Below are positions 37,064 through 55,382 of a stretch of 64,000 nucleotides of DNA, piece by piece. Within the stretch, counting starts at the first letter, position 1; each line of letters opens with the position of its first letter. The position numbers and the translations under genes are program-made. The DNA lies in assembly GCA_020059465.1 (NCBI GenBank), contig JAGVBZ010000043.1:1-64000 (forward strand). Reading direction: 5' to 3'. Below the pieces are notes generated by a model. It was not told the DNA's origin, did no database searches, and saw only the letters and a list, made by a program, of their open reading frames with translations. The stretch is from Brevinematales bacterium. Lineage in GTDB: Bacteria > Spirochaetota > Brevinematia > Brevinematales > GWF1-51-8.

Positions 37064-38113
37064 ATGCGCGAACGGAGAAAATCGCTATCGGTAAAAATCG
37101 GAAAGGTCGAGATCGGGGGAGAAGCGCCGATATCGATTCAATCGATGACAACGACACCTACTACGGATATCGCGGCTACGCTTGCCGAGATCAGGACGCT
37201 GGCTGAGGCGGGATGCGATATCGTCCGTCTGGGTATACCCGACGAGGCGTCCGCGCGCGCGGTCAAGAAACTCAAATCGGAAGGCTGCCCGCTTCCCGTA
37301 GTGGCGGATATCCATTTCGATTATAAGCTTGCATTGATCTCGGTGGATTCCGGCGCGGACGGCCTGAGGATCAATCCCGGCAACCTGAAAAAACCCGAGC
37401 ATGTCAAGGATATTGTCGCGGCATGCAAGGGTAGAAGGATACCGATCCGCATCGGTGTTAACGCCGGTTCGCTCGATAAAACCCGTTATCCCAAACCCAC
37501 CGCCGAGGCTATGGTTCAATCCGCCCTCGAACATATAGGATACCTCGAAAAGGAAGATTTTTACGATATCAAGGTTTCCCTGAAATCGCATGATGTGGTA
37601 ACAATGATCGAAGCGAACCGCATGTTTATCAAACTCAGGAATTACCCGCTTCACCTCGGAGTGACCGAAGCGGGATATTTCACTCAGGCGGCTGTCAAGA
37701 ATTCCATCGGGATCGGGGCACTGCTTCATGAGGGTATCGGCGATACGATTCGCGTGTCGATCACCGGGGATCCGGTAAGGGAGGTGGAGATTGCGAGGAT
37801 GATCCTGCGTTCGCTCGGCCTGAGAATGGAGGGGGTAGAAATAGTGGCATGCCCCACCTGCGCCCGGAAAGAATTCGATGTCGAGGGAGTGGTCGAGGAG
37901 TTTGTGAAGCGTACGAACGGCATACGGAAGTATGTGAAGGTCGCGATCATGGGGTGCGTGGTAAACGGCCCCGGCGAGGCCTCGGACGCGGATTTCGGGG
38001 TCGCGGTCGGGAAGGGCGGCGCGGTCTTATTCCAGCACGGCGAGGTAGTAAAAAAATTCCCGTCCGATAAAATTCTGGATGTGCTGCTTGAGGAAATCGA
38101 TACATACCGTTAG
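37064..38113 (+). CDS. ispG: 4-hydroxy-3-methylbut-2-en-1-yl diphosphate synthase
   Basis: IspG (GcpE) opens the cyclodiphosphate ring in the penultimate MEP-pathway step. The 349-residue protein has the TIM-barrel start (SIQSMTTTPT) and the 4Fe-4S cysteines Cys263, Cys266 (CPTC) and Cys298, with Glu305 in GCVVNGPGE. This is the short, two-domain bacterial form. The start is ATG behind GAGGGTACT. The organism therefore makes isoprenoids through the MEP route. Confidence 0.95.
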   Translation: MRERRKSLSVKIGKVEIGGEAPISIQSMTTTPTTDIAATLAEIRTLAEAGCDIVRLGIPDEASARAVKKLKSEGCPLPVVADIHFDYKLALISVDSGADGLRINPGNLKKPEHVKDIVAACKGRRIPIRIGVNAGSLDKTRYPKPTAEAMVQSALEHIGYLEKEDFYDIKVSLKSHDVVTMIEANRMFIKLRNYPLHLGVTEAGYFTQAAVKNSIGIGALLHEGIGDTIRVSITGDPVREVEIARMILRSLGLRMEGVEIVACPTCARKEFDVEGVVEEFVKRTNGIRKYVKVAIMGCVVNGPGEASDADFGVAVGKGGAVLFQHGEVVKKFPSDKILDVLLEEIDTYR

Positions 38114-38201: not shown

Positions 38202-38278
38202 TGTGTAATTATTACACGCCTGTGTATTAGTTATACAAAGTGATATTTAGCATACTGTGAAATATATTTATACAGTAT
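38202..38278 (+). promoter_or_regulatory. tandem palindromes upstream of the sigma-54 promoter
   Basis: Two sites of the form TGTGTA-N5-TAYACR lie at 38202-38218 and 38221-38237, centres 19 bp apart; the first contains the perfect palindrome GTGTAATTATTACAC. A third, ATACTGT-N13-ACAGTAT, is at 38252-38278. They end about 25-100 bp before the -24 element, as expected for enhancer-binding-protein sites. Confidence 0.6.
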
Positions 38279-38300: not shown

Positions 38301-38317
38301 TTGGCACGATAATTGCG
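38301..38317 (+). promoter_or_regulatory. sigma-54 (-24/-12) promoter for the giant surface protein operon
   Basis: TTGGCACG-ATAA-TTGC at 38301-38316 fits the sigma-54 consensus TTGGCACG-N4-TTGCW at every defined base but the last (G at 38317). GG and GC are 10 bp apart as required. No competing sigma-70 box of equal quality is near. Start of transcription is expected near 38327. Confidence 0.85.
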
Positions 38318-38326
38318 AGAATATAT

Positions 38327-38507
38327 TGATATATCAGGGGATGAGGCCGGGAGGGATTCCGGCCAGAGTAAATCTTGAGAAGTCCTTCGGATAACAAATT
38401 CCTTTCTTCCGGAGGTTGAACATCCCCCCGAAAGACGAGTTAAATGTGTTTTGAAGGACTTTTCAAGAAAATTAAAAATTTTCAGTCGTATTATAAGAGG
38501 AGGAGAT
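38327..38507 (+). promoter_or_regulatory. structured 5' leader of the giant surface protein operon
   Basis: About 180 nt with three nested elements: a GGCCGG/CCGGCC hairpin (38345-38364); a 15-bp long-range stem, CTTGAGAAGTCCTTC (38374-38388) with GAAGGACTTTTCAAG (38453-38467); and, inside it, TCTTCCGGAGG with CCCCCCGAAAGA. The ribosome site GAGGAGGAG (38497-38505) is outside the stem. I recognise no known riboswitch. The rest of the gap 38114-38200 shows no feature. Confidence 0.55.
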
Positions 38508-41500
38508 ATGAAGGTGATCAAGGGTCTGGGGTTTTTGGCGTTATTTCTCTCCATTTTTTATAACGGGGGTTATGCATATTTCTACGAAGACTTGTTTTCG
38601 GCTTCTCCCGGTAAGTGGCAATTAAAGTATGAATACAGCCGTTCGCTCGGATACGGACTGGTGGGCGACGGAGAAACTGTAGCGATAAATGCAGGCGCAA
38701 GCGGCGAGCTTCGCTTTACAGGCAACGGCTACACCGCCGGATTTGCCAATGAACTTTACGGGTTCCAGGCGAAGCTGACGAACCTCGGGCCGAATTCCGG
38801 TTATTCCGCTTCGGTACATAAACCTTTCGGTTTTGAAATTACCCGTACTTATGCATGGCTCGATCCTCATAACGATACATCCAACCCTGAATCGGGGCGT
38901 ATGAAATGCGATATGATTCTTTGGCTGGTAAAAAACCAGATGACTGACGCTATACATTTTGACGATTTCCTGACCATCGTCGAATTCAGCCGGCCCCAGC
39001 TCGGTACGAACGACGGTATGCCCTCCGAACCCGATGTTCAGCCGCGTTCCTTCTGGATTCCCAACGAGTCGGGTACGAAGGAAATCAAGTTCGATTTCGT
39101 GAACGCAGTCGATCCTACAGGAAAAAAAGGCGGAAATAATCTCCTCGACGTCATGGAATGGGGATATGACGATTATTGGGGAAAGAATACATATAACGCT
39201 GGCGGTACGGCGAATGCAAATAATCTGAACAACGCCGATATCCGTTTCAGGTTGACGACGGACGGGGAATACGCATATTTTTATGTCAACCCCGCTCCCG
39301 CGGGAAACCCCACTCAAGTTTGGAACAAGTACAACGGGGTTGCCGCGACCTATACGAACACCTACTATCTGGTTGCTAAGCTTCCTATTTCGTTTACCAA
39401 TCTGATTATTCCGATGATCGGGGTCGGGAATAACCGCCCGGATTCCGAACAGGAAGCCGCTTATTTCGACGACTTCCGTATCCGTTCTATCTGCTCATCC
39501 ATTACCTCTTATGTATCTCCCGCCACAGCGGCGGCCGGAGCATCGATACCGCTGAAACTGATCATTACCCCTAATTTCGCAGCCACCGGATACGCCTCGA
39601 CCGACTACGCGGGTATCCATGAGCTTTATGTTCAGCTTCCTGCCGGCTCCGCTTACACTAACTGGGCGAATTATACCAATAAACTTCAGATATTCTGGAC
39701 TACAAACGGCGGAGTCTATCAGACGTTTACTAAACAGCTTGGCAATGTGAACCCGTCGGTGCTGAACGGCGCGAGTATCTCGATAGTCAGCAATAACCTG
39801 CTCCGTATCCGTTTCGATGCTGTCGGAAGCTCTTCCGCCGACTGCCGTGTTTTCCATCCCACTATCCTTAACGGGCTGAGTATCAACACGTTGAATCCCG
39901 AGATCATGCTCGTGATCTCGAACTTTACTACCCCCACGCAGGCGGATTCCGTCGGTAAAACCTTCGTAGTATACGCGAATAACGAGAAATATGCGGATAC
40001 GACGTGGGCTAAAAACGCTACGACCGGCAAAATGAAATCGTACCAGAAGAGCGGAGACGGACTGTTATTCAAGACTGTGAACTCGCCTCTCGGCGTCGCT
40101 TATCTCCGCCCCGGGCAGATTTACGAGGGATCGGCGGGGACATTTTATTACGATGTCAAAGCGCTGAATACCAATAATAATGCGAATATAACTTCAATAC
40201 AGATAAAGGTTCCCGCGGGATTTACAGTCAACCCGGCAAGCATCGACAGTGAACGTCTCGCGGGCAGTACCGGATTGTCGCTCATTTCCAACGGTACTAT
40301 CATTAAGGTCGATTATACTTCCGAGGGAATAAAACTGGTCGCCGGAACCGGTATCGACACAATCAAATTCAATACCACCACTACCACCAATGTACCCGCG
40401 AATACGAATATGGTTGTGGTGAAATTCCCGTCTTATTCCTACTCGACCGTGCAGGGCGTTAGCTTCGTGACGAATAATACCAATCTGGCATACCCGTCAC
40501 AGCAGCTTATAGTGCGGAAGAAACCGCCTGACGCGCAGGCGTATATGCAGAACGGTGTCCCGATTACCGGGCTTCCAAAGAATTATATTAAGAATACCGC
40601 TATCAGTAATGCATATAAATATGTAGTAGCGAATAAGGGATTGACGGGTAATAACCTCCTCAAGCTCCTTATCCGTATCGATACGAAAATTACCAATATA
40701 AAATCGGTAGCGAGCGGGCTTCCGGCAACCATAAGCTCTTTCTCATCGAATACTTATATCTATATCAAAATCGACTATAAGGCACAGAATACCAATATTC
40801 TGAACGGCGGCGGCGACGTTATCACGTTCTATGGATACGACACCGTCCGCTCACTGACCAATTTAATACTGATGGCGAATTTCCCCGCATGGGCGGATAA
40901 CGGAAACGGCGAAGGGTGGGTGAGTGTCGCTGAGCATTCCGATACCTACAAGACTTACTACTATACGCCTCCCGCGATCGCTATCGCAAAGATCAACGCG
41001 CCGGGCGGCGAACTGACAAACGATTTAGTCTCGCACCATATTTTCAATGACAGAGTCACTGCGACAAATATTCAGATTACTATTCAGAACAGCGGTGAAC
41101 TTGGAAACAATATCTATGACGCGCTGATCTATTGTCCCCCGCAGTTAACGAATATATTCGGGATTGCGGCATTCCATCCTATTACGAAGGTTTCCAACGC
41201 GATATGTACAAAGTATCTTACAAACGGCGGGACGAACGTAATTCGTGTACAGTATACGAATATCCTTAAAGCCGCGACGAACCAGATAGGCGATTCCAGT
41301 ATTGTCAGCTTTATGGCATGGGATAATGTAAACAGTTCAAATAATTATTCCTTCCTGATACAGGTCAGGAATACGACCAATTACGCGAAGGCAAAGCCTT
41401 ACGCTGAAGATTCCCGGCAGCTGACACTGAACTTTATATATTCCAAACCGGCAGCGGATTCCTATATTACCGTACCGTTAGGGTATATCAACTCGGCGTC

Positions 41501-44500
41501 GGACGGTACTAATGTTGTTTATACCATCCGGAATCTGGGACGGGTCAGCAATATTATTCAAACAGTCTATATTCATATCCCAACGAATTATATACAAAAT
41601 GTTACGGGTATAGTTAGTTCGCTCGGCGGAGTTCCTGTTTTCTCTGGGGATAAAATCACCCTTACATATTCCGGGAACATGTTTGCGGGCGGGTTGAGCG
41701 ATAATGTATCATTCTTCCTGAACGATAAGGTGGACGCGGGTACTGCGCATATCGATATAAAAGCGAGTGTCCAAAATCAGAGGATGTGGAGCAATACGGT
41801 CAAAGTTACGCCTACCAAAACGCAGACAGTCGATATTATTCCGCCTCCGACATGGTATTCCTATACGTTAGCCCCGTTTGTCATCTATCGGGCCGATTTG
41901 GGTCAGACGAAAACCAATGTGCTGTGCATCAGCGTCAGCAACAGGGGTGTGGGAAGCAACCTTCTCGACCGCGTATGGTTCCAGATCCCGGCGCAGTTCA
42001 TAGGTAAGGTTCTGCTCATCAGTAACGCTCAGTTGAACGGAACGAGTGTTTCCAAACCTGCTGCGATAAAAATTTCCAATGATTATATCCGTGTCGATTA
42101 TGATGTAGATGGGCAGTATGTTAACGCCGGTACGGTCGATAAGACCTATATTTGGCTTTTAGTCAATACTACCAACGTATTCAATACAACGTGGAATATG
42201 CTCGCGGCGAATAACTCTACGAATGCGGACGGAAGCCATAATATGACCAACGGCGGATTGACTCTTTCTCTTGGCGGGCTTACAGGAAGTAAAATCCTTT
42301 CGCAAGCCGATACTCCCCATGGGTATATCACACCTACTGAGATTCTCACTCCGGCTATAAAAAATAACTTCTCATATTATCTCAAGAACGGCGATTACCT
42401 CACCGGTAGAAATATATTCGGTGTGAAAATTGCAATGGTTACCCCGTTTACATTAATCTCGAACTGTTCCGGCGGCGATTCCTACAGTACTTATTACTCG
42501 AACAACTCCGCCGTAGTAGAAGTCGGTTACTCGACGGGTATCGCTCCCAATAATGCGGTCCTGATTAACTTTACCGCGTACGATAACTGGGAAAGCGGTC
42601 CGAACAATGTCGCTACTGAGATATATGTCAACTATAAGGACGGTACGGGATGGCATCCCACTAAAACGAAAACCGGCGCGTATTCCAAGAGTATCACGTT
42701 TAATAACCCGATAGCCAGCGGGTTGGCGTATATCGAACCGAATACGGTTTCGCAGGATTTCCCGACGAATTCCTTCAAGATTCACATAAAAAATAGCGGC
42801 GAAGTGGATAACAACATCCTGATGATGGCGGTAGCGATTCCTCCCGCTATTACGAATCTCACGTCCATCTCCTCTCTTGTCAAAGGCGGGACATGCTACT
42901 ACAAACCCGGTTTATTACTGGTATACTATACCAACGGCGTACAACGCATGAACAGCGCGGAGACCGATGTCGTGCAGTTTATCGGCGCCGATAATATCAC
43001 CAATACCGAAGTGGCGCAGGCATGGACTGTATATGTCGATAACACAACGAATACAAATATTCTGTTAATGCAGACAGCGGTTGCGTTGGGCGGAAAAAGT
43101 CTCGCGCTGAATATTGTTAAGCCCGATTATAATCCGTTTATTTATATCACCGCGAGCAATTCGATTTCGCAGTTCGACCTGAACACGGTTTATTCGACAT
43201 TTACTACAAATTTCTTCTATTTTGAAATATGGAACCAGAGCGGGACGGGAAACCGTATCACTTTTGCGAAAATAAAAATCCCGGGTATCGGCACTGTGCT
43301 GAATACAAACTGGGTATCAGTTACCAGCATGAATAAGACTATTCCGGCTGCAGTAGTATCGAACGGGTATATCTGGCTGAATTATACGTCCGATAAGATA
43401 TTCCCCGGACAGTACGATAAGGTGCTGATAAAAATTCGGGATACGGTTCTTCATTCCGAAACATCGATCAACTGGAGCGCGGATGTGGCGTTCGACTCCA
43501 CGTTTAACCAGTATAAGCCCGCATCCCAGATGGCCGGAAAGTCGCTCACAATAAATTACAAGATGCCTCAGCCTTCCGTGTCGGTAACTAAGACCCCCGG
43601 AGAAATTTACCTGAACCGCCCGAATCTCGCAATCTCCTATAACATCAGTAATACAGGGAACGGCTCCAACGATTTAAATGAGGTGAAGATATTCCTTCCG
43701 AGTATTTTCCGCACGGGCTTCAGCGCATCCAAGGTATCGAATTCTGTTGCGACTAATATCACTTACAGCGCGGGAACCGGGTTGATTACTCTGTTCTATA
43801 ATAATCTTTCGCCGAAATCGGTGGACAAGATTTTCCTGTATGTTACGAATACTGCGTCTACTTATCAGTGGGTTACCATTGAATCGTCGGCAAAGAACTA
43901 TATCAATACGAATTTTACCTCCGGGAATAAAGACCTGCTGGTATCGTCAATTCCTTCGTTCAGCGTTTCGCCTAACGATCTGGATACGACCATCGATCAG
44001 CAGGATTTCGCGTTTACGGTCAATAACAGCGTGACAGCCGCGTCGCTGCATATCCAGAAACTTGTGCTTCAATTCCCTACGCAGTTTACCAATTTCTCGA
44101 TTGTAGGCAGCGGGATTGCGATGTCCAATTATGGAACGATTACCAGCCTGACATTGGACTACCAGGCTATGGGAGAGTCGATTAATGTCAGCGACCAGGA
44201 TACGATTATTATCCGTCTGTATGACAAATATGAAATCGGGAATCTGACCAATCTGTTTAAAGTCTGGGCCGACAACGGTCAGGGATATTACCCGTTGAGC
44301 GTCAGTTCCGGGAAATCGGCAAACGTATTCTTTATAATGCCGGAGGTTTTCGCCAGAACATTATCAACTCCGGATTATATCGAATTAGGAAAGATTTCCA
44401 ACAGCATGACGATTACTTTGGATAATCTGGGAAGCGGGTCCGATAGGATCAGTTTTGCAAGAATTAAGCTGCCTAGCGGAATGGGAAGTATTGCCAATAT

Positions 44501-46259
44501 CACCAGTTCCTACGGCGGAATTGTAAATTACAGTCTCACGAGTAATATAATATATCTCAGGTATACCAATCTTCTGGATATCGGGCAGAGCGACAATATC
44601 AGTTTCGATTTTGTCAATCTGATAAATCAGGTGACCAACCTGAGAATAGAGATGGAAGCCGCGAACCTGACGAATAAACCGGTGTACTATAACTGCCCCG
44701 GTAATCTCGGCCCATACCTCATGCTCAGCGTCGACTATCCCCCTGTTGCAGCGGAAAGCTATTTCTACGGCGATAATAATCTCTATCTGATCGAAACAAA
44801 TGCGACGCTGATATTCCGTATCATGAACCGTTCGTCAGGATCGATACTTACTCAATCGATCATCGTGTTCGGCACAAACATGATGAATGTGTTTAAATCT
44901 ATAAAGATCGATACGGCAAACAGCATTGCGCAGAGCATTCTGTTCGACACGAATAATAACCGGATCATCATGACCTATAGCACTAATCCGGGCGCATCGA
45001 TGGAATTTACCGAATACGACGATGTGCGACTCACGTTTGATTACACGCTGAATAGCGTATTCATAATTCCGGTACATACTACCAATTCAATCAGGCTGGA
45101 AAGCGGGTCGAATACGAACATCATCGGTATTCAGACCGGCGGGAATGTCAGTTATATTGGGATAACCAATTCGGCATGGGGCGCCGTTAAGGGAAATGTA
45201 TATCCCTTCACGAAAGCGGTCAATGTTAAACTCTATTATTCCAATACATCGGTACTCGCTACCAATGACAGCGGTATCAATCTGGGCGCTATCAGCACGA
45301 TTGGGACAGGCCAATATATACTCAGCCGTATCCCGGCAGGGTCATATAATATGGAATTTTCACTTCCCGGCGTGTTCAAGAAAGAAACATATTCGATAAA
45401 CATAGCCGCGAACAAAATCACGAATATTTCGATTATTACGATGCGGAATGCAACTCTCAAGGCGGGAGAGGAAGCTCCCCTTCAGGAAGTGGTTTGTTAT
45501 ATGGCTACCAATACGCGCATCGTATTCCCGAAGGGCTCTGTGGGCAGCGAATTCTCGGTGGATATCAAGGTCATACTGTTGACCCCGCCGCAGAAGGCGA
45601 AGATTGACGAGAGCACATTGATAAAGCCGCCCCTCGGCAAAGACGGTATGTTCGGATACTTGTTCCAATTCTACGATAATAACGATAAACCGATCAAAGG
45701 ATCGCTGCTGCAGCTTGACGCGATCATGTATCTGGCGTTCGATCCTGTCACCAACCTCGGATGGGGCTGGCAGGTCGCCGATCTTGCGATATTCTATTGG
45801 GACGATAACGGCGATACCGACTATTCCGACTCCAAGTGGGTGAGGATAGGCGGTACGGTCGACAGTGTGAACGGTGTAGTCACCGCGAGAGTGGCGTATC
45901 TGCACGGGTTCTATGCGGTTATGGCAAAACTGGTCAACGAACAGGGTATAATACAGAACGTTGTGCTGAGGCCGAAGATTTTTACCCCATTCGGTCCGAA
46001 CGATTACTATACCACTGTGAGGATTTCGTTTGAATTCGATCAGGGGTACGACAGCTACGAGGTGAAAATATACGATCTCTTCGGGATGCAGGTACGAAGC
46101 TTCAAGCGTACTGCCGAGAGCGGGGTAAAGTTTACCCAAGGCGAGGTCGCGTGGGACGGCAAAGATAACGAGGGTTATCCGGTTAAGAGCGGCGTCTATA
46201 TCTATCAGGTGATAGTAGGCGGGCAGACTTATTCCGGCACCTTAGTGATCGTACGGTAG
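38508..46259 (+). CDS. giant secreted Ig-repeat surface protein 1
   Basis: A 2583-residue secreted protein. It has a signal peptide (1 to about 23), an N-terminal domain of about 310 residues ending ..AAYFDDFRIRS (a form seen in lectin-like or galactose-binding-like folds), then about 13 repeats of 150-190 residues. Each repeat has the plan Y(I/V).P...N.(F/L).Y.I.N.G.G.N.(I/L), IP, Y(T/S)N, D.I.F, N. These are Ig-like and rich in Asn and Thr. After them come a carboxypeptidase-regulatory-like domain (about 45180-45450), a domain resembling ZU5 (45450-45940) and a FlgD-Ig-type C-terminal domain (45960-46256) with WDGKDNEGYPVKSGVYIY. ATG 38508 follows GAGGAGGAG; upstream in-frame starts lie in the leader stem. 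Confidence 0.85.
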   Translation: MKVIKGLGFLALFLSIFYNGGYAYFYEDLFSASPGKWQLKYEYSRSLGYGLVGDGETVAINAGASGELRFTGNGYTAGFANELYGFQAKLTNLGPNSGYSASVHKPFGFEITRTYAWLDPHNDTSNPESGRMKCDMILWLVKNQMTDAIHFDDFLTIVEFSRPQLGTNDGMPSEPDVQPRSFWIPNESGTKEIKFDFVNAVDPTGKKGGNNLLDVMEWGYDDYWGKNTYNAGGTANANNLNNADIRFRLTTDGEYAYFYVNPAPAGNPTQVWNKYNGVAATYTNTYYLVAKLPISFTNLIIPMIGVGNNRPDSEQEAAYFDDFRIRSICSSITSYVSPATAAAGASIPLKLIITPNFAATGYASTDYAGIHELYVQLPAGSAYTNWANYTNKLQIFWTTNGGVYQTFTKQLGNVNPSVLNGASISIVSNNLLRIRFDAVGSSSADCRVFHPTILNGLSINTLNPEIMLVISNFTTPTQADSVGKTFVVYANNEKYADTTWAKNATTGKMKSYQKSGDGLLFKTVNSPLGVAYLRPGQIYEGSAGTFYYDVKALNTNNNANITSIQIKVPAGFTVNPASIDSERLAGSTGLSLISNGTIIKVDYTSEGIKLVAGTGIDTIKFNTTTTTNVPANTNMVVVKFPSYSYSTVQGVSFVTNNTNLAYPSQQLIVRKKPPDAQAYMQNGVPITGLPKNYIKNTAISNAYKYVVANKGLTGNNLLKLLIRIDTKITNIKSVASGLPATISSFSSNTYIYIKIDYKAQNTNILNGGGDVITFYGYDTVRSLTNLILMANFPAWADNGNGEGWVSVAEHSDTYKTYYYTPPAIAIAKINAPGGELTNDLVSHHIFNDRVTATNIQITIQNSGELGNNIYDALIYCPPQLTNIFGIAAFHPITKVSNAICTKYLTNGGTNVIRVQYTNILKAATNQIGDSSIVSFMAWDNVNSSNNYSFLIQVRNTTNYAKAKPYAEDSRQLTLNFIYSKPAADSYITVPLGYINSASDGTNVVYTIRNLGRVSNIIQTVYIHIPTNYIQNVTGIVSSLGGVPVFSGDKITLTYSGNMFAGGLSDNVSFFLNDKVDAGTAHIDIKASVQNQRMWSNTVKVTPTKTQTVDIIPPPTWYSYTLAPFVIYRADLGQTKTNVLCISVSNRGVGSNLLDRVWFQIPAQFIGKVLLISNAQLNGTSVSKPAAIKISNDYIRVDYDVDGQYVNAGTVDKTYIWLLVNTTNVFNTTWNMLAANNSTNADGSHNMTNGGLTLSLGGLTGSKILSQADTPHGYITPTEILTPAIKNNFSYYLKNGDYLTGRNIFGVKIAMVTPFTLISNCSGGDSYSTYYSNNSAVVEVGYSTGIAPNNAVLINFTAYDNWESGPNNVATEIYVNYKDGTGWHPTKTKTGAYSKSITFNNPIASGLAYIEPNTVSQDFPTNSFKIHIKNSGEVDNNILMMAVAIPPAITNLTSISSLVKGGTCYYKPGLLLVYYTNGVQRMNSAETDVVQFIGADNITNTEVAQAWTVYVDNTTNTNILLMQTAVALGGKSLALNIVKPDYNPFIYITASNSISQFDLNTVYSTFTTNFFYFEIWNQSGTGNRITFAKIKIPGIGTVLNTNWVSVTSMNKTIPAAVVSNGYIWLNYTSDKIFPGQYDKVLIKIRDTVLHSETSINWSADVAFDSTFNQYKPASQMAGKSLTINYKMPQPSVSVTKTPGEIYLNRPNLAISYNISNTGNGSNDLNEVKIFLPSIFRTGFSASKVSNSVATNITYSAGTGLITLFYNNLSPKSVDKIFLYVTNTASTYQWVTIESSAKNYINTNFTSGNKDLLVSSIPSFSVSPNDLDTTIDQQDFAFTVNNSVTAASLHIQKLVLQFPTQFTNFSIVGSGIAMSNYGTITSLTLDYQAMGESINVSDQDTIIIRLYDKYEIGNLTNLFKVWADNGQGYYPLSVSSGKSANVFFIMPEVFARTLSTPDYIELGKISNSMTITLDNLGSGSDRISFARIKLPSGMGSIANITSSYGGIVNYSLTSNIIYLRYTNLLDIGQSDNISFDFVNLINQVTNLRIEMEAANLTNKPVYYNCPGNLGPYLMLSVDYPPVAAESYFYGDNNLYLIETNATLIFRIMNRSSGSILTQSIIVFGTNMMNVFKSIKIDTANSIAQSILFDTNNNRIIMTYSTNPGASMEFTEYDDVRLTFDYTLNSVFIIPVHTTNSIRLESGSNTNIIGIQTGGNVSYIGITNSAWGAVKGNVYPFTKAVNVKLYYSNTSVLATNDSGINLGAISTIGTGQYILSRIPAGSYNMEFSLPGVFKKETYSINIAANKITNISIITMRNATLKAGEEAPLQEVVCYMATNTRIVFPKGSVGSEFSVDIKVILLTPPQKAKIDESTLIKPPLGKDGMFGYLFQFYDNNDKPIKGSLLQLDAIMYLAFDPVTNLGWGWQVADLAIFYWDDNGDTDYSDSKWVRIGGTVDSVNGVVTARVAYLHGFYAVMAKLVNEQGIIQNVVLRPKIFTPFGPNDYYTTVRISFEFDQGYDSYEVKIYDLFGMQVRSFKRTAESGVKFTQGEVAWDGKDNEGYPVKSGVYIYQVIVGGQTYSGTLVIVR

Positions 46260-46268
46260 GAGGGCTAT

Positions 46269-49200
46269 ATGAAATACATAAAAAAGACGCACAAACTCGG
46301 GAGAAACCCCATGAGCAGAATATATAGCTTAGTCCTGACTGCATCGTTAATTATTCTGACCGCTGTTTCAGGCTTCGGGAAGTCTATGTACTATTATGAG
46401 CCTTTTCCGGATTCGCCTACTGCGGTTGCTCACGGATGGGTATTCAACTTCCGCATGAGCCGCGATATGATCGTGTATGATTTGTTTCAGGATTGGGGCG
46501 GAGACGGTCAGTCCGCATTTGACAGGAACCATCCGGGTACTGTCAATGTAAACGCAGGCGTACTGAATATCTATGGAAAGCCGAACAACTCCGCTTTGAC
46601 ATGGAACAACTGGTATCTCGGCGACGGCGCGAAATGGGATCCTAAACTCTGTCCCGATATGGGAAGCCAGAAAGTGACCGCTTCGGCCGAACAGCCGTTC
46701 GGATATGTGATTATCCGCTATACGAACAGTATTGACCCGCGCGGAGATTCCGGGGAGTCCGGAGGATATGCGAACAGCGCCGCTCAAAAAGGATTGGTTA
46801 CCGCGTGGATGGCGCAGGAGAACGGCGCGGTCGATCCGTATGACACATGGGAAAACTTTGTATATTTTTACGATAAGGCAAACTGGAATGTAGCGAACAA
46901 TACATGGGGATACTATAAGGATTACGAGCATGATGTCGCGATTGCTACATTAACTGCTGATATTGATAATGTTACACCAGGAAATATTACTGGAAATTTC
47001 AGGAAGAATTTCGACGATAATAACCAGAATTATCAGAACTGCCTTGTAGCGCAATTTGACGGCGACGGGTATGTCAATCCTGTCACAACAGAGTTAGGTA
47101 TAAAAATGGTTCATGACGGCAGTTCTATCAAGATGTATGCCAATCCCGATCCGTTGGGTGATACGGCAAATATGTCGAACACGTGGATTCTTGTCGGGAG
47201 CGCAAATGTCGGATGGTATGATGACATTGTTAGTTTCTTCGGAATAGAATCCCCCTTCTTCCGTGAAGGAGAAGTTTGTACGGTTTATGATAATTTCTAT
47301 ATTCGTACGGTCGCGAGTAATCTCACGGCGTCGGTAACCCCGAAGAAAGCGGTCACGGGCGCGAGCGTTACGTTTACCGCAAGCCTGACTCCGCAGATAG
47401 GTTCGATGAACGACAGCGGAATAGGCGAAGTGTATATCAAGAAACCCGCCGGATACGGCGCATGGACGCCCGCAAACGTGACGGTTGTGCATCCCCAAGG
47501 CGGAGCGATGACCCGTCAGACCGCTGCCGCGTATAAGATCGGGGGACTTCCCGCGAATAACTTCTATGTCGAGGACAGAGGCGGATTGCTGTATATCCGT
47601 TTCGGTATGCTCGGTGGTGATGCGGCGAATAACGTGGTTACCAACGGAACGATCAATATTTCGTTCACTATCACTACTCCCGCAACCGGAGACCGTTTAG
47701 GCCAAAACTTCGAGTTATATGCCGATTGCAGCAAGCATGCGAGAACCGGGCAGGACGTCATTTTCGGCGGTACTATGAAATACGCGACTACCGGAATGAA
47801 AAAGGCATATGCGAGCGGTTTTGAGCAGCTTTTAGTCCGGACATATACTCAGCCAAAATTGAACTACGCTAAGGTGGAATACTCCCCGTCGCCGATTATT
47901 GTCGGTACCGAGGAATCGGCGTTTACGGTCAAACTGTCGTCCGAATTGGTTACGGGCGCTCCGGATATATCGCATATCCGAATCCAGATACCGTCCGGGT
48001 TTACTGTCAGTAATAACAGTCCCAGTAAAGTAAATATTCAGTCCATGGTGCTGAAGACGCCGTCCGGCGACCTGAGTTCGAATAACGCGTTCGTATCGGG
48101 CGGATATGTCTATGTGTATTATACAAACAGTCTGATCGGCGGTTTCCCCGGAGAAGACGGTTTCGACCGTATCACGTTCAACGTATACGGTACCCCGTCC
48201 ATCGGAGCGAAAAGCTCGTCTAATTTTACATGGCAGGTACAGGTGAACAGCAGTCTGTTTGTATCCGGTACGACATGGCAGAATGCGACCAATACGCCGT
48301 TGATGCAGGTTACGGTCGCTAAATCGAATGCGGTTGCGGCCGGATCGATAACACCGGACAAAGTGGCGATTTTCGCTCTTGTCGCAAGCAACGCCAACAG
48401 CTATACTTATACCATTAAAAATCAGGGTAAGGGCGATAGTTCTATCCTGAAAGCGAAAATTTCGGTTCCAGTTAACTTCACGAGTATCTCGGTTACCACA
48501 CCCAGCGCGAAAGGCGCGGCGGTTTCCTATACGAACAGCGAACGCATGATTTATATCAACTACGGGACGCCGTTATTGACCAACACCTCGGATACGATTC
48601 AGTTTACGATGACTCATACCAATACGAATGTGAACTCCCCGGCTGTGCTTGCGCCGTTTGTTCTCTATGCCGATAACGGCAACTTGTCGGGCTATGTGCT
48701 GCAAAGCCCCGAATTCGGGAAAACGTGGAGCGTGACTATCAAACCTCCGATACCTTCGGCGGCTAATTATATCACTCCGCCATGGGTTTACACTACTTCG
48801 ATTACCAATACGATCACCAACACCATTTTCAATACTTCGCCTCGCGGGGTAAAGATAAAATATGCTACGATGATGTTTGCGGCCGATAAATTCCCGACTA
48901 TTATCAATGTCACTACTACCTATATGAAGAATCCCGCCAACATTATCCAGACGAATTTTGACGGCACTAACTTTATTTACTTGAAGTTCTTTAACGATAC
49001 AAACGGGGGATTATTCTCCAAGTACGTGAACAACGATAAGGAGAACGTTATCGTAAAGTTTATCGATAGCGTCACTTACGCGACCTTTGCGACGAACAAG
49101 ATGCCCACAAATATCACCATACCGACTTATGTGTTCAAGTCGGACTATATAACCAATAACTCCGATTTTTATGATCTTGCGGAATTTGACCCTAACTACG

Positions 49201-52200
49201 GCGGAACGAACAGATTCTATTTCAAACTGCCTCTTGTCTCCGCAAAGTTTTCTATCTCTCCCCAGACTATTGCGTCCTCGTCGGTAACAAACGATATTAC
49301 GTATGTTCTGACGAATACCGGTCTGCCGGGGAATAGAATCCATTACTTCTATATTCCAATACCCGCAACGATCTCTACCAATGTCTTGCTGATCAATCCA
49401 AGCGTCGGCGTCGCTATACCCGAACCGGCGCAGAACCGTATAAAAATCGTCTTCAGTCCGGCGCTGGACGGCGGGCAGAAATGTGTGGTTACCTTTAAGA
49501 TGGTGGACATTGTCGGACAGGAAGACAAGCAGGCATATTTCTATCCGTCGGTACGGAACGATTATGAGTATATAACGCTCGGCAACCCGGATATCATTTC
49601 CGGGAAGAGCGGAAAGATCGATTTCCAGATACCGAAACCGAGCGGCGGCGGCGGCGGTTCTCCCAATGTAGTATTTGTGCAGAAATCCGAACCTGTCGGA
49701 AGTATTATTACTCAGCAGTTTACGCTGATTGTTACGAATACAGGCGTCGGGCAGGACCTTTTCCAGAAAGTGATGGTCAAGATGCCGCAACCGTTGAAGG
49801 GATTTGTCAAGTCGGTGTACAGCACGAGGCTTAATCTCTCCTCCACTAATTCGGCTTATTTCACGATTACATCCACAAACTTCCAGGTAAACTATATACC
49901 TACTGCAAAAGAAATTACAGTGGGAAAATCGGATACCCTGATTGTCACCGCTATGATATCCAATCTGACTATGCTGCCGACAAACGGTAAATGGGAATTT
50001 TTCGCGGACAACGGGTTCTACGATATCGGAAATCCCGGAAAGACGTTCTATGAACTGACTAATCTTGTGATCGGGAGCGCTTGGGTTTACGGTACGGAAC
50101 GTGTAAAAGTGACATTAACCGGGAATGACTTGACTACTATCAGAACAAACACGTTTACCTATGAAATCAAGAACGGTACGAACGGGAGTCTGTCGGTCAA
50201 TAAGGTGAGGATAAAAATCCCGAGTATCTATAGCGTCAATCCGAGTGATGTTTCTGTTACTCTGACTTCGGCCGATGTCACAGTAAGCGGCGGATATATC
50301 TGGCTGACCTATTCTTCGGGTATGCTCGACCAGAATAAGAAATCTCAGCTTACGATTAAGGCGGTTAAACCTTTATTGGCTGAACCGATGACCGTTAATT
50401 GGACAGCGGAGGTATATTATACCAATAATAATCAAGCTGTGCCGTGTCAGGTTAAGGGAAGCAGTATCCAATATATCAACGCGCCGAATGCGGACTTTTA
50501 TGCGCATGTCTCTCCTATTACTGTAGGAAAGGACTTGTCTTCGCTGAGTTACACTATAACCGTTACTAATATAGGTGCGTTGAGTAACAATATTTATAAA
50601 CTCAAAATTGTTCCGCCTACGACAAACGCGAATAACAAACTTGTTATTACAAATGTTACCGGAATATCGTCGACCTTAGCCAGTAAGAAATGGTACTCGA
50701 ACGACGGATGCATCTATATCGACTATGGAATTAGTAATAAGAATATCGGAGCGAAGGCGAAGGATGTTATCACGTTTACTGCATACGATAACCAGAATAA
50801 CGAAGGTTTTGTAGCAAACTGGAATGTGTACGCGATGAATTTAAAGACTACAAACGCGACATTCTTCTTAACAAAAGACCCGACCGTAATCGGTAAGAGT
50901 CTGCAGTTCAGAGTGATTGTTCCGGCTTATAATACTTCTTACTATGCATTTCCGAATCAGATTTCTACCGCGGAAGCCTCCAATACGATCAGCATCTATG
51001 TGAATAACACCGGTACGGGGACAAATAACGTCACCAGCGTCAAGTTATTCTTTGCGGCGCCCTTTACTAACTTCGGATTGCTTGCCACCAGTTTAAAGGG
51101 CAGCGCGCCTGTAGTCGGCTCAAATTTTGTTTTGGTAAACTATCCCACACCGATACCTCCGTCATCCAACGATGTGATTACCCTGAAGATTAGGGATAAT
51201 ATCACGTTCGGAAACGCATCTTCCTATATAACAGCAACTGTGAAGTACAACACCTCCGGCGGGCAGTATGTGCCGTCCTCGGTGAGTGTAGGAACGAACT
51301 TGATCAGTTTCCAGATGCCTGCGCCTGTGGTAGCGGCTGAAATGAGTCCGAACGACCTTTACAGCAGCCAGAATAGCGGTACCATTACATTCCGCTTTAT
51401 TAATAAGGCGACCGGGAGCAACAAGGCGCAGAAGGTCATTTTATACATACCCAGCCAGTTTACCAACGGGATGGGGCTGTCCAAGCTGACCGATGTAAAC
51501 GGAATGACGACAAATATTGCATATAGCGCCGGGAAATTCATCCTATCATATGCAAATTTCCCAGTAGGGTATACCAACGTACTGACGCTGAATGTCACGA
51601 ATTTCTCGACAAATCTGACCAGTTATATCTTCCAATCAGTCGCATCCAACGGCGTACTCGGGGCGTTTACTACGACAAACACGGATTCGAAATACCTCAA
51701 TATTGTAAAAGCTCCTTCGGCGGAATTAACCGCTGCCTCGATGATTGTATATTCGACGAGGCTGAATAACGTAGTATCGTTTACGATCGATAACAATTCC
51801 AGCGGAAACGAACCCGTGAAATTCGTGCGGATCGATATCCCGACAGTGTTTAACAATATCACATCGCCCTCCAGCGTCAAAGGTGTGATTGCGCAGCAGG
51901 CCGCATCGTATATCGTTATCGCTTATACGAATAGTGCAAACTTCCTAGCGAAGGGCCAGCAGGATACCGTATCTATGACTGTCTGGGACACAACGAATAT
52001 GGTGGAGATCAATCCGCTGACATATGCAGTGAAGGCCAATAACGGGTCCGGATACGGAGTCGTACGTGAAATGATAAATACTCTGAAGCAGAGTATGAAA
52101 ATCCCGTTGGCGGAAATCACGAATTATCAGATTTCCAGCTGGTTCCTGATCAATACAAGTCTGAAAATCGAAACGAATAATTTCATTTTCATACTGAGCA

Positions 52201-53984
52201 ATAAAAATGCCAACCAGAATCTGGTGTATTCAAACGTGATAATTCTGCCGAATGAGATTGGCTCGCATATTGTATCTTCGATCAACGCGACTCACCCCTC
52301 TGCGTCGGCAGTACAGTCCGGAACAAAAATCATTGTGACTTACGGCGGCGCGAACGGGTTCTTCCCCGGTGAGACGAATTTAATTTCGTTCCAATTCACG
52401 AATAATATATTTACCGCGAAGAACCTTCTGATGAAAATATATTCATACAACAAGAGTTCCTTCGGATCGGTGCAGAATAATGTCAACCTCAGCTTTAAAT
52501 CCCCGCAGGAACCTACCGAGGCATATGTATATAATAAGAAGATACTTTACAGCATCGACCATTTCAATGAAATAGTATACAAGGTAAAAAACGGTATGTA
52601 CGATATCGGGATACAGAAGATCAGGATTAATTTCAGTAATCAGTTGAAGATTACTAATATCTATTCCGATTATCATGGAACTTTCCTGCCGTTTACACAG
52701 ACGCCTTCGAATTTAACGATAAACTTCGCGGCTGTGGGACTGCTCCCGTCCAGACTGGACCCGTCGAAGGGTGAAACGACCCTCCGTATCTACGTGATCT
52801 ATACCAACAATTCGAGTTGGACGAATAATATGTCGGCGAAGGTACAGTACTCGGGTAACCTTGAGTGGGCGAGCACGCGCCCCGGTGCCGGGGAATGGGA
52901 TTATACTCCTGTTCTGCTGGCGGACTTCGGGCGAATTATCGGTTATGTTCTGCCCGGATCGGCAAACCCCACAGTGCGCCTGCTTATGCCCGGTACGACC
53001 AACACTCTCATGACGAATAAATTCGGGCAGACTATCACAGCCGCGGCGAACAGTTCGACAGGGTACTATGTGCTCGACTTTGTTCCGCCCGGGACATATA
53101 ATATCAGTTATAGCGGTGACCTCTATAAACCTTCGGTTCTTTCGAATATTACCGCTATAATCAATAAGATTACCAACGGGGTGAACTATAAGATGAAGAA
53201 GGATACTTTTAATCCTAATTCTACTATAGTGCAGCAGTCCCTGTGTCTGGACGATATGCAGAGCGTACTGATTGTCCCGCCCGGAATCATACGGAATTAT
53301 TTTGCCGTCGATATGTGGATTTCCAATATCGCCGCGCAGCAGAAGGAAAAGGTCGGAGGCGGGTATATTCAGACCCCCGCTGACAGGAATAATCTGCAGG
53401 TATTCTACCTCGATATCAGCGACCTGAAAGGCAATGACTTGATGCAGCAGGAAATATGGGGTAATCTTACTCTGAAGCTGTTCTATAATGAGACAAATAT
53501 CGCCGCGCAGGGATGGAGCGAAAACTCGCTGGCTATCTATTATTGGCGCGAAATGACCGGAGAATGGATGCGGATCGGCGGTAAGGTGAATGCGTTGGAG
53601 AACTCTATTTCCGCACAGGTAAGTTATATCCATCAGTATTACGCGATATTCGGCGAGACGGGTATCAAAGAAATAGCTCCGGGATTTGTCAATGTGACGG
53701 TGGATCCCAAAATATTTACTCCATTGAGCACGGATAAGAGTTTTAAAAACCTTAAACTTTCCGTCGGTTTCGCGAGCGAGGTCAGCAAATATGAAATTAA
53801 GATATACACGCTCTACGGCGAACTGGTACGAAGTTTTGTGTTTGAGGGCGGCGGATATACCCAAGCTGAAGTATTCTGGGATGGAAACGATAACGAGGGT
53901 TATCCGGTTAAGGGCGGTGTGTTTATCTATCGTGTAATCGCTGACGCTAATACGTACAGCGGAACGATTGTGATAGCGCGGTAA
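46269..53984 (+). CDS. giant secreted Ig-repeat surface protein 2
   Basis: A 2571-residue paralogue in plan of the protein before it, 9 nt downstream. A longer N-terminus precedes the signal (MSRIYSLVLTASLIILT...). The N-terminal domain (46386-47310) ends ..TVYDNFYIRT. About 13 Ig-like repeats follow, one boundary of which is a poly-Gly linker (about 49641-49662). Then come a carboxypeptidase-regulatory-like domain (about 52930-53200) and the same FlgD-Ig-like end (53690-53981; WDGNDNEGYPVKGGVFIY, YSGTIVIAR). Sequence identity with protein 1 is low in the repeats but high at the C-terminus, so the end is under constraint. Start ATG 46269 follows AGGAGGG. An adhesin or surface-fibre role is inferred. 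Confidence 0.85.
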   Translation: MKYIKKTHKLGRNPMSRIYSLVLTASLIILTAVSGFGKSMYYYEPFPDSPTAVAHGWVFNFRMSRDMIVYDLFQDWGGDGQSAFDRNHPGTVNVNAGVLNIYGKPNNSALTWNNWYLGDGAKWDPKLCPDMGSQKVTASAEQPFGYVIIRYTNSIDPRGDSGESGGYANSAAQKGLVTAWMAQENGAVDPYDTWENFVYFYDKANWNVANNTWGYYKDYEHDVAIATLTADIDNVTPGNITGNFRKNFDDNNQNYQNCLVAQFDGDGYVNPVTTELGIKMVHDGSSIKMYANPDPLGDTANMSNTWILVGSANVGWYDDIVSFFGIESPFFREGEVCTVYDNFYIRTVASNLTASVTPKKAVTGASVTFTASLTPQIGSMNDSGIGEVYIKKPAGYGAWTPANVTVVHPQGGAMTRQTAAAYKIGGLPANNFYVEDRGGLLYIRFGMLGGDAANNVVTNGTINISFTITTPATGDRLGQNFELYADCSKHARTGQDVIFGGTMKYATTGMKKAYASGFEQLLVRTYTQPKLNYAKVEYSPSPIIVGTEESAFTVKLSSELVTGAPDISHIRIQIPSGFTVSNNSPSKVNIQSMVLKTPSGDLSSNNAFVSGGYVYVYYTNSLIGGFPGEDGFDRITFNVYGTPSIGAKSSSNFTWQVQVNSSLFVSGTTWQNATNTPLMQVTVAKSNAVAAGSITPDKVAIFALVASNANSYTYTIKNQGKGDSSILKAKISVPVNFTSISVTTPSAKGAAVSYTNSERMIYINYGTPLLTNTSDTIQFTMTHTNTNVNSPAVLAPFVLYADNGNLSGYVLQSPEFGKTWSVTIKPPIPSAANYITPPWVYTTSITNTITNTIFNTSPRGVKIKYATMMFAADKFPTIINVTTTYMKNPANIIQTNFDGTNFIYLKFFNDTNGGLFSKYVNNDKENVIVKFIDSVTYATFATNKMPTNITIPTYVFKSDYITNNSDFYDLAEFDPNYGGTNRFYFKLPLVSAKFSISPQTIASSSVTNDITYVLTNTGLPGNRIHYFYIPIPATISTNVLLINPSVGVAIPEPAQNRIKIVFSPALDGGQKCVVTFKMVDIVGQEDKQAYFYPSVRNDYEYITLGNPDIISGKSGKIDFQIPKPSGGGGGSPNVVFVQKSEPVGSIITQQFTLIVTNTGVGQDLFQKVMVKMPQPLKGFVKSVYSTRLNLSSTNSAYFTITSTNFQVNYIPTAKEITVGKSDTLIVTAMISNLTMLPTNGKWEFFADNGFYDIGNPGKTFYELTNLVIGSAWVYGTERVKVTLTGNDLTTIRTNTFTYEIKNGTNGSLSVNKVRIKIPSIYSVNPSDVSVTLTSADVTVSGGYIWLTYSSGMLDQNKKSQLTIKAVKPLLAEPMTVNWTAEVYYTNNNQAVPCQVKGSSIQYINAPNADFYAHVSPITVGKDLSSLSYTITVTNIGALSNNIYKLKIVPPTTNANNKLVITNVTGISSTLASKKWYSNDGCIYIDYGISNKNIGAKAKDVITFTAYDNQNNEGFVANWNVYAMNLKTTNATFFLTKDPTVIGKSLQFRVIVPAYNTSYYAFPNQISTAEASNTISIYVNNTGTGTNNVTSVKLFFAAPFTNFGLLATSLKGSAPVVGSNFVLVNYPTPIPPSSNDVITLKIRDNITFGNASSYITATVKYNTSGGQYVPSSVSVGTNLISFQMPAPVVAAEMSPNDLYSSQNSGTITFRFINKATGSNKAQKVILYIPSQFTNGMGLSKLTDVNGMTTNIAYSAGKFILSYANFPVGYTNVLTLNVTNFSTNLTSYIFQSVASNGVLGAFTTTNTDSKYLNIVKAPSAELTAASMIVYSTRLNNVVSFTIDNNSSGNEPVKFVRIDIPTVFNNITSPSSVKGVIAQQAASYIVIAYTNSANFLAKGQQDTVSMTVWDTTNMVEINPLTYAVKANNGSGYGVVREMINTLKQSMKIPLAEITNYQISSWFLINTSLKIETNNFIFILSNKNANQNLVYSNVIILPNEIGSHIVSSINATHPSASAVQSGTKIIVTYGGANGFFPGETNLISFQFTNNIFTAKNLLMKIYSYNKSSFGSVQNNVNLSFKSPQEPTEAYVYNKKILYSIDHFNEIVYKVKNGMYDIGIQKIRINFSNQLKITNIYSDYHGTFLPFTQTPSNLTINFAAVGLLPSRLDPSKGETTLRIYVIYTNNSSWTNNMSAKVQYSGNLEWASTRPGAGEWDYTPVLLADFGRIIGYVLPGSANPTVRLLMPGTTNTLMTNKFGQTITAAANSSTGYYVLDFVPPGTYNISYSGDLYKPSVLSNITAIINKITNGVNYKMKKDTFNPNSTIVQQSLCLDDMQSVLIVPPGIIRNYFAVDMWISNIAAQQKEKVGGGYIQTPADRNNLQVFYLDISDLKGNDLMQQEIWGNLTLKLFYNETNIAAQGWSENSLAIYYWREMTGEWMRIGGKVNALENSISAQVSYIHQYYAIFGETGIKEIAPGFVNVTVDPKIFTPLSTDKSFKNLKLSVGFASEVSKYEIKIYTLYGELVRSFVFEGGGYTQAEVFWDGNDNEGYPVKGGVFIYRVIADANTYSGTIVIAR

Positions 53985-54012
53985 TGGGTTGCTTGGAAAA
54001 AGGAGGAATAAG

Positions 54013-55287
54013 ATGAAAAAGTTACTGACAGTGATAGCAATATTGATGGTGAGCGGTTATCTGCACGCGGCGTTTGAAGACCTCGGTTATACAGCGAGGA
54101 GTATGGCTTTGGGTAACGCTATGTTCGGGGAATTCGACGGTGTCAATTCAATGCATTATAACCCTGCGACTATAGCGCTTGCGAAAAGCTTTCAGGTATA
54201 CGGCGGATGGAATACCCCGTATGCTCAGTTTAACGACGGCTCGATGATAAATACTATAGATGCGAATATTGTGCTGCCGTTTTTTAACGGGTTCTCGTTA
54301 AGCTTCGATCCGTTTATTACAAAACGCGCCGCGTTGGGCTTCGCCTTCCATCGCATGTCGGTATCCGACGGTACTATGGAGATCTATCACGAGGGTGTAT
54401 ACAGCTTTATTTATGCGAAAGATCTGAACGATGTGATTTCACGCGGAGCAAAAATTTCCATCGGAATCCGTCTGAACGTATATGATATTGCGGTCGGCGC
54501 GCATCCTGATGTGGTACTGAATCCCGCGCTCGGCGGAGTGATGTCGAAGGTCTCGTTCGGCCTTGACGTCGGTCTGACCTACGACTTCTCGGAAACTATC
54601 CGTTTAGGCCTCAGCTTTAAAAACCTGATATCGCCGAACGTATCCATTTCGCCCGACGGTACCGATTCATTACCCTCGGAATTCCGTCTGGGAGCGAACT
54701 GGAATATCGGCAATATCCTTTTTATGAAAAACTCGATGGTCGGGATCGGTTTGGTAACCTACGGAAAGGATGCCAGTGATAACCGTCAGGCGAACTCCTC
54801 CTATAATATCGGGTTCGAATTCAAGCAGTTGTCCGCGCATGAAATATTTGAATCCAAGCCGTTCAAGGGTGAGATTCTTTCCATTCGGCTGGGAGCTATT
54901 TGGCAGCAGATGAAAGTGGGTGAAGATGTGATAACCGGGTCTGCCGGTATCGGTTTTATGTATGTATTCGGAAAGGCACACCAGATAAACATCGACTACG
55001 CTTTCAAATACGGGTTCAATGACGGATCGATGAAACACGTCGCCGGCCTGACATATCAATACCTTTTACCGAACAGCGCGTTTGTCTACGAGAAGGGAAT
55101 GGAAGCGGATCAGGAGCTTGATGAACTTTCTAAGGCGAGCACCAATATAAATAATCCAGACAGCGGAGTGAATAACGCAAAACCAGACGCGAATGTTCAG
55201 CCCGATGCGAAAAAACCCAATCCTGCTGACGATAAGAATAAGCCCGTTGTAGACGACAAGAATAAGAAAAAGGACAAAATTAAGTAA
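54013..55287 (+). CDS. outer-membrane barrel protein, PorV/UPF0164-like
   Basis: A 424-residue protein with signal peptide (1 to about 18, GYLHA-AF) and ARSMALGNAMFGEFDGVNSMHYNPATIA in part, the N-terminal signature of PorV/PorQ and UPF0164 barrels. The barrel is followed by a C-terminal tail of about 60 residues rich in Asn, Asp, Lys and Pro. PorV brings C-terminal-domain cargo to the type IX translocon in Bacteroidetes. It is co-transcribed with two cargo-like giants, 28 nt after the second. Whether it handles them is inference. ATG 54013 follows AGGAGGAATAAG. Confidence 0.8.
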   Translation: MKKLLTVIAILMVSGYLHAAFEDLGYTARSMALGNAMFGEFDGVNSMHYNPATIALAKSFQVYGGWNTPYAQFNDGSMINTIDANIVLPFFNGFSLSFDPFITKRAALGFAFHRMSVSDGTMEIYHEGVYSFIYAKDLNDVISRGAKISIGIRLNVYDIAVGAHPDVVLNPALGGVMSKVSFGLDVGLTYDFSETIRLGLSFKNLISPNVSISPDGTDSLPSEFRLGANWNIGNILFMKNSMVGIGLVTYGKDASDNRQANSSYNIGFEFKQLSAHEIFESKPFKGEILSIRLGAIWQQMKVGEDVITGSAGIGFMYVFGKAHQINIDYAFKYGFNDGSMKHVAGLTYQYLLPNSAFVYEKGMEADQELDELSKASTNINNPDSGVNNAKPDANVQPDAKKPNPADDKNKPVVDDKNKKKDKIK

Positions 55288-55316: not shown

Positions 55317-55352
55317 AGAGCTCCGTCTCGAGAGAGGCGGGGCTTGTTTTTT
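55317..55352 (+). terminator. intrinsic terminator after the barrel gene
   Basis: AGCTCCGTCTC (55319-55329), GAGA loop, GAGGCGGGGCT (55334-55344): 11 bp with two G-T pairs, then TGTTTTTT. It ends the sigma-54 operon. Confidence 0.85.
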
Positions 55353-55353
55353 G

Positions 55354-55382
55354 TAGACGAAACCGCGGATTCGGTTTATAAT
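55354..55382 (+). promoter_or_regulatory. possible promoter for the phosphohexomutase gene
   Basis: TAGACG (55354-55359), 17 bp, perfect TATAAT (55377-55382), 27 bp before the GTG start at 55410. Confidence 0.45.

Follow-up and report, generated by a model that had tools for sequence, protein, structure and literature searches.

Organization of the giant-protein locus

The window, the whole 64,000-nucleotide stretch of DNA analysed here, lies within contig C28 of a 3.19-Mb, 97%-complete genome of 48 contigs (G000). As seen in Table 1, it harbors a predicted operon of approximately 17 kb in which two giant genes separated by 9 bases are followed by a gene for a PorV/FadL-like barrel. All three genes recur in this order in three sister species (G001, G002 and G003), which together with G000 form the genus set used throughout and whose giant 1 is 73 to 83% identical. 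The nearest named relative that we found is Spirochaetes bacterium GWF1_49_6 (Spirochaetota), whose contig MIBD01000187.1 carries a giant 1 match of 82% identity. Adjacent giant-gene pairs were also observed in other families of the order, without the promoter described below, at locus L040 and twice in G007 (C1:346223-361532 and C1:1225694-1241099).

Both giant proteins have a signal-peptide-like start, a combined N, T and S content of about 27%, and 0.3 to 0.4% cysteine. The AlphaFold model of the last 434 residues of giant 1 (pLDDT 82) consists of successive beta-sandwich domains ending in the FlgD_ig/T9SS-tail-like domain; its structural matches were generic surface or adhesin proteins with low TM-scores, PorU and PorZ being among the beta-sandwich matches. 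The N-terminal model (pLDDT 57) was too poor for use. The structural matches of the C-terminal model lend loose support to a surface role.

Table 1. Features of the giant-protein operon and its control region (window positions), and enhancer-binding proteins (EBPs) encoded in the same genome (contig names)
Feature	Location	Strand	Description
Distal palindrome	38202-38218		TGTGTAATTATTACACG; second of the predicted activator sites; centred at -93 relative to the -24 GG; kept in G001 and G002, one base changed in G003
Proximal palindrome	38221-38237		TGTGTATTAGTTATACA; predicted EBP site; centred at -74 relative to the -24 GG; same distance in G001, G002 and G003
Third palindrome	38252-38278		ATACTGT-N13-ACAGTAT; not conserved in the four-species alignment
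-24/-12 element	38302-38316	+	TGGCACG-N4-TTGC; GG at 38303-38304, GC at 38315-38316; GG and GC kept in 4/4 genus species
Expected transcription start	38327-38328	+	About 12 bases past the -12 GC; from sigma-54 promoter geometry
5' leader hairpin	38372-38469	+	98 nt; 16-bp long-range closing stem; conserved arms and a loop that varies in sequence and length
Giant protein 1	38508-46259	+	2583 aa; signal-peptide-like N-terminus; N/T/S-rich; C-terminal FlgD_ig/T9SS-tail-like domain
Giant protein 2	46269-53984	+	2571 aa; distant giant 1 paralogue, ~28% identical in the C-terminal half
PorV/FadL-like outer-membrane barrel candidate	54013-55287	+	ORF open from TTG at 53989; 54013 is the MKK start of G001 and G002
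Terminator-like hairpin	55318-55355	+	Intrinsic type; 12 pairs and a T run; predicted operon end
EBP, GAF-GAF-AAA-HTH	C10		~12 kb from rpoN, same contig
EBP, receiver-AAA-HTH	C29		AtoC/NtrC-like
EBP, receiver-AAA-HTH	C17		NtrX-like; kinase gene ahead
EBP without receiver	C5		
EBP, receiver-AAA-Fis HTH	G000:C31:70821-72179		AtoC-like; candidate activator; paired with a GAF histidine kinase

A -24/-12 element and tandem palindromes upstream of giant 1

The ispG (GcpE) stop at 38113 and the giant 1 ATG at 38508 are 394 bases apart. Two TGTGTA-N5-TAYACR palindromes come first in this gap, followed by an AT-rich spacer, the letters TTGGCACGATAATTGCG at 38301-38317, a 180-nt leader, and a AGGAGGAG ribosome site. 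The full element, TGGCACGATAATTGC, carries GG at -24 and GC at -12 with the standard spacing of a sigma-54 promoter, and its pattern occurs once in the window with zero mismatch. The sequence-only reading of this DNA had described a near-perfect sigma-54 promoter here, with two palindromes 19 bp apart just upstream. Both descriptions are borne out, the element being free of mismatches and the palindromes, each 17 bp long, having exactly that spacing. The third palindrome, which the same reading had counted with the other two, does exist as a string; however, its half-sites are different and are not kept in any of the three sister species, and its part in the control region is unsupported. It was rejected as a conserved operator and is probably a chance product of the AT-rich spacer.

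A second target and the significance of the combined motifs

The genome-wide statistics rest on pattern searches. Exact TGGCACG-N4-TTGC occurs twice in the 3.19-Mb genome, near the chance expectation of one or two, and the relaxed pattern TGGYAYR-N4-TTGC gave 15 matches versus 12 for its reversed control. Palindromes with at most one mismatch numbered 28, as did those of the reversed control. Neither motif is therefore significant by genome-wide count alone.

The search for TGTGTA-N5-TAYACR that the sequence-only reading had proposed returned just three exact matches, two at the giant operon and one at C42:13591. The latter has a partner with one mismatch 24 bp away, at C42:13567, and this tandem pair (centres at -138 and -162 from the GG) lies 138 bp upstream of a second -24/-12 element, TGGTATGAATCTTGC at C42:13736. 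The gene behind it encodes a secreted lipoprotein with CHB_HEX_C and LamG domains. By our own arithmetic, about 14 sites with at most one mismatch in 3.2 Mb should yield some 0.002 pairs within 30 bp, and two were observed, both just upstream of -24/-12 elements and in arrangements conserved in the sister species. Since so few sites make such a pair very unlikely, the combination of palindrome pair and -24/-12 element exceeds chance, whereas the single motifs do not. The recurrence of the switch at a second gene and in all four species examined argues that the motif marks a small dedicated regulon and is not due to chance.

Among the other -24/-12 candidates examined in the genome, none had a palindrome with fewer than two mismatches. 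A wider regulon was rejected: the remaining one-mismatch palindromes that were checked sit inside genes or are without a strong -24/-12 element. Copies of AGTGTACGNAGTACACG were likewise discarded as regulon sites, as they look like an unrelated dispersed repeat. This partly tandem repeat, present in the genus at G001:C151:4510, G000:C29:133076 and other places, mimics the palindrome at one mismatch.

Conservation of the control region

In the sister species, the giant operon has AGGCATGATAATTGC or AGGCATGATTATTGC as its -24/-12 element, and in 4/4 species the palindrome centres are placed at exactly -74 and -93 from the GG. Pairwise identity is 76 to 97% in the palindromic block versus 44 to 67% in the spacer. 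An invariant length with a drifting sequence is what a fixed geometry, through looping or helical phase, would predict. The second target, which adjoins coaE-like and SpoIID-like genes (named by eye), keeps TGGTAYG-N4-TTGC in the genus; one palindrome lies at -138 to -140 and, in 3/4 species, another at -162 or -163; in G003 one clear palindrome was found. The spacing of the palindromes is unequal between the targets, being 19 bp at the giant operon and 24 bp at C42. Tandem dyads at a conserved upstream position, as expected of EBP upstream activating sequences, are present in 4/4 species at the giant operon, and the second target has such a pair at -138/-162.

These comparisons bear on two other explanations. 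The -24/-12 match could be coincidental and the true promoter of the operon a sigma-70-type one within the AT-rich spacer, given that the exact match is near its chance expectation genome-wide and that one weak sigma-70-like match is present at 38240-38268. Nevertheless, shuffles of the region give 1.5 such matches, and this sole candidate was rejected as being at chance level; the spacer that holds it is unconserved, whereas the -24/-12 invariants are retained throughout the four species and recur, with the same palindromes upstream, at a second target. We consider this explanation very improbable. Alternatively, the palindromes might be sites for a repressor, a GntR/TetR-type dimer or some other non-EBP regulator, superimposed on a sigma-54 promoter with a different activator. 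Symmetric operators of this size are indeed common in many regulator families. However, one would expect the site of a repressor to overlap the promoter, and tandem sites 74 to 163 bp upstream of two independent -24/-12 elements, at fixed spacing and with drifting sequence between, are the classical arrangement for EBPs, which makes such a regulator improbable, if less so than a sigma-70-type promoter.

Among 296 genomes of the phylum, strong tandem matches (0 or 1 mismatch) were found only in the 4/4 genus members. The remaining tandem matches were weaker, with 2 or 3 mismatches, and the six of these that were examined had no strong -24/-12 element downstream. Both the palindrome and the tandem pair are absent from the families outside the genus, and the regions upstream of giant genes in other families (L040 to L044) showed no such elements. 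Overall, the comparisons indicate that the -24/-12 element and tandem palindromes form a real and conserved control region; its kind is known and its operator sequence is new. Separately, a longer palindrome of 19 bp, TGTGTATAGTCTATACACA, is common to two sisters (L064, G001:C143:4092, and L074, G002:C25:23680) and has no -24/-12 element nearby.

RpoN, enhancer-binding proteins and the candidate activator

A sigma-54 promoter presupposes an rpoN gene, and one was identified at G000:C10:35808 (PF04552, E 5.4e-56). Together with elements conserved at fixed spacing across the genus, its presence makes an activator-dependent sigma-54 promoter, as first proposed for the giant proteins from the sequence, the best reading of the site. 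We hold it very probable that this is a genuine sigma-54 (RpoN) promoter with EBP sites, a judgement which covers the promoter and those sites and does not extend to a named activator.

The genome encodes five full EBPs (Table 1). The C10, C29, C17 and C5 proteins have orthologues in other families of the order at 55 to 66% identity, whereas orthologues of the C31 regulator were found only in the genus (81 to 92%), the best match elsewhere reaching 47%, in a comparison that left some sister and outgroup EBPs unclassified (for example, L121, L133 and three places in G005). The HTH of the C31 regulator is nearly identical in 4/4 species. Its partner kinase has GAF, HisKA and HATPase_c domains, and the N-terminal part of this kinase is 63 to 84% identical in the genus and at most 35% elsewhere, over short stretches. 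The genes for kinase and regulator follow, in the same orientation, a LolA-like gene, an unassigned gene and rsfS, a setting that would fit an envelope role.

The inventory of EBPs that the sequence-only reading had called for thus yielded five proteins and one genus-restricted candidate, and we infer the activator from among them. Because its genus restriction matches the distribution of the palindrome, the C31 response regulator is nominated as the activator of the TGTGTA-N5-TAYACR sites, with about an even chance of being the right one; the assignment draws on a single clade, and any genus-specific regulator would fit. No palindrome was found near the C31 operon, so autoregulation does not back the pairing, and none of the five EBP loci carries one.

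The sigma-54 promoter may instead be real and served by one of the four order-wide EBPs, its binding site having changed in the genus. All four are present in the genus, and the GAF-GAF protein is encoded close to rpoN. NifA-type regulators, moreover, bind TGT-N10-ACA, not far from the TGT-N11-ACA of the palindromes. On the other side, the other families of the order keep these four EBPs yet are without the palindrome, and the loci of the four are themselves without it, though this is equally true of C31. We give this possibility somewhat less than an even chance.

A conserved hairpin in the 5' leader

The leader downstream of the expected start contains a hairpin, unmentioned in the sequence-only reading, that is conserved in 4/4 genus species. 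Its minimum free energy is -40.9 kcal/mol (z -5.8), with z of -3.6 to -4.7 in the sisters. Across the four species, 63 of 64 pair cells of the stem are standard; the changes are one-sided (for example, U-A, U-G and C-G at one position), and strictly counted two-sided compensatory changes are absent. Evidence from covariation is therefore weak, and the stem speaks for preserved pairing more than it proves the structure by covariation.

A covariance model found one strong copy per genus genome, at the giant operon, and one weak look-alike in G002, so that a dispersed repeat was rejected. A known riboswitch or leader family was likewise discarded for 38372-38469, as no hit to the 5' leader reached the Rfam gathering score, the sole match, to MicA on the opposite strand, being sub-threshold. 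The hairpin probably acts in mRNA stability or translation control. An inverted repeat at an unrelated place of G002 (C24:14054-14133; L168 1501-1580) has arms whose core (ATCCTGAAAAG ... CTTTTCAGGAT) is almost identical to that of the hairpin.

Proposed mechanism

Tight control is expected of sigma-54 promoters generally. In the mechanism that we propose, RNA polymerase with RpoN would wait at the -24/-12 element as a closed complex, while a phosphorylated EBP dimer would bind each TGTGTA-N5-TAYACR palindrome, approximately 100 to 120 bp ahead of the start. From these dimers an active AAA+ oligomer would form, and DNA looping over the spacer together with ATP hydrolysis would open the promoter. 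The activator would most likely be the C31 response regulator, paired with its GAF-domain histidine kinase. It would act in the same way on the unlinked C42 gene for the putative surface lipoprotein, so that both targets would be switched on together. The giant-operon transcript would start with the 180-nt leader and its conserved hairpin.

A more far-reaching version, which we offer tentatively and regard as rather unlikely in full, is that a genus-specific two-component sigma-54 switch, co-encoded with LolA and RsfS, exists to turn on a pair of ~280-kDa surface proteins and a lectin-like lipoprotein, while a dedicated and previously undescribed leader hairpin supplies a second level of control. 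With the promoter assignment, an uncultured spirochaete genus gains a defined regulatory circuit, made up of an operator sequence, its two targets and one leading candidate for the activator, and a switch is named for a giant-protein pair whose genes are adjacent in several genomes of the order.

Comparison with known systems

Type IX secretion substrates, together with PorV, offer one comparison. Giant 1 ends in a domain with similarity to FlgD_ig and TIGR04183 (Por_Secre_tail), and the third gene resembles PorV; the scores, however, fall under the curated cut-offs (FlgD_ig, 25.6 versus 27; TIGR04183, 20.1 versus 23; PorV_fam, 36.5 versus 90).

The architecture of the switch itself is like that of PrsK/PrsR, which provides two-component sigma-54 control of PEP-CTERM proteins in proteobacteria and in which PrsR was found from its DNA motif (PMC1569441). 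The sigma-54 dependence of one PEP-CTERM gene has experimental support in Aquincola (PMC9850573). As in PrsK/PrsR, a response-regulator EBP gene stands beside its histidine kinase gene, a 17-nt upstream motif that is sometimes repeated precedes a -24/-12 element, and the targets are extracellular or surface proteins, putatively so here, with long upstream regions. The distance is also alike, with 63 nt between the proximal palindrome end at 38237 and 38301, against a mean spacer of 62.8 nt (PMC1569441), and among NCBIfam models TIGR02915 (PrsR) ranks second for the C31 regulator. The nomination of C31 uses the same argument by which PrsR was discovered from its motif, here within one clade only.

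There are also differences. The C31 regulator scores 416 against the TIGR02915 equivalog cut-off of 502.6 bits; its kinase, which has a GAF domain, has no PrsK (TIGR02916) match among the best 25 of 77 families; the motif here is TGTGTA-N5-TAYACA, whereas theirs ends in TTTACA; neither giant has a PEP-CTERM match in Pfam or NCBIfam; and the host is a spirochaete rather than a proteobacterium. Because the TIGR02915 score is below its cut-off, the motif differs and the PEP-CTERM domain was not found, we regard the giant-operon switch as one that would work like PrsK/PrsR without being a member of that system.

Within the spirochaetes, the Rrp2-RpoN(-RpoS) pathway of Borrelia burgdorferi links a response-regulator EBP of the AtoC-like group to lipoprotein synthesis (PMC3162934, PMC4014564), and the C31 regulator is likewise AtoC-like. 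Control in Borrelia runs via RpoS, whereas here the genes for the putative surface proteins themselves carry -24/-12 elements and tandem enhancer-like palindromes. Elsewhere in the genome, strong -24/-12 elements lie just upstream of two sigma-70-family genes of 274 and 297 aa (L024, G000:C2:14506, identified by eye; L032, G000:C36:34154, identified by Pfam), which suggests, by analogy, an RpoN-to-sigma-70-family cascade comparable with RpoN-RpoS of Borrelia. A further -24/-12 match lies approximately 30 bases upstream of lpxC (L155, G000:C41:36560). By these comparisons, the giant-operon switch would fit the general theme of sigma-54 governing the bacterial exterior, and it would extend the idea of sigma-54 as mainly a regulator of the outside of the cell (PMC3162934) to a case beyond proteobacteria and Borrelia.
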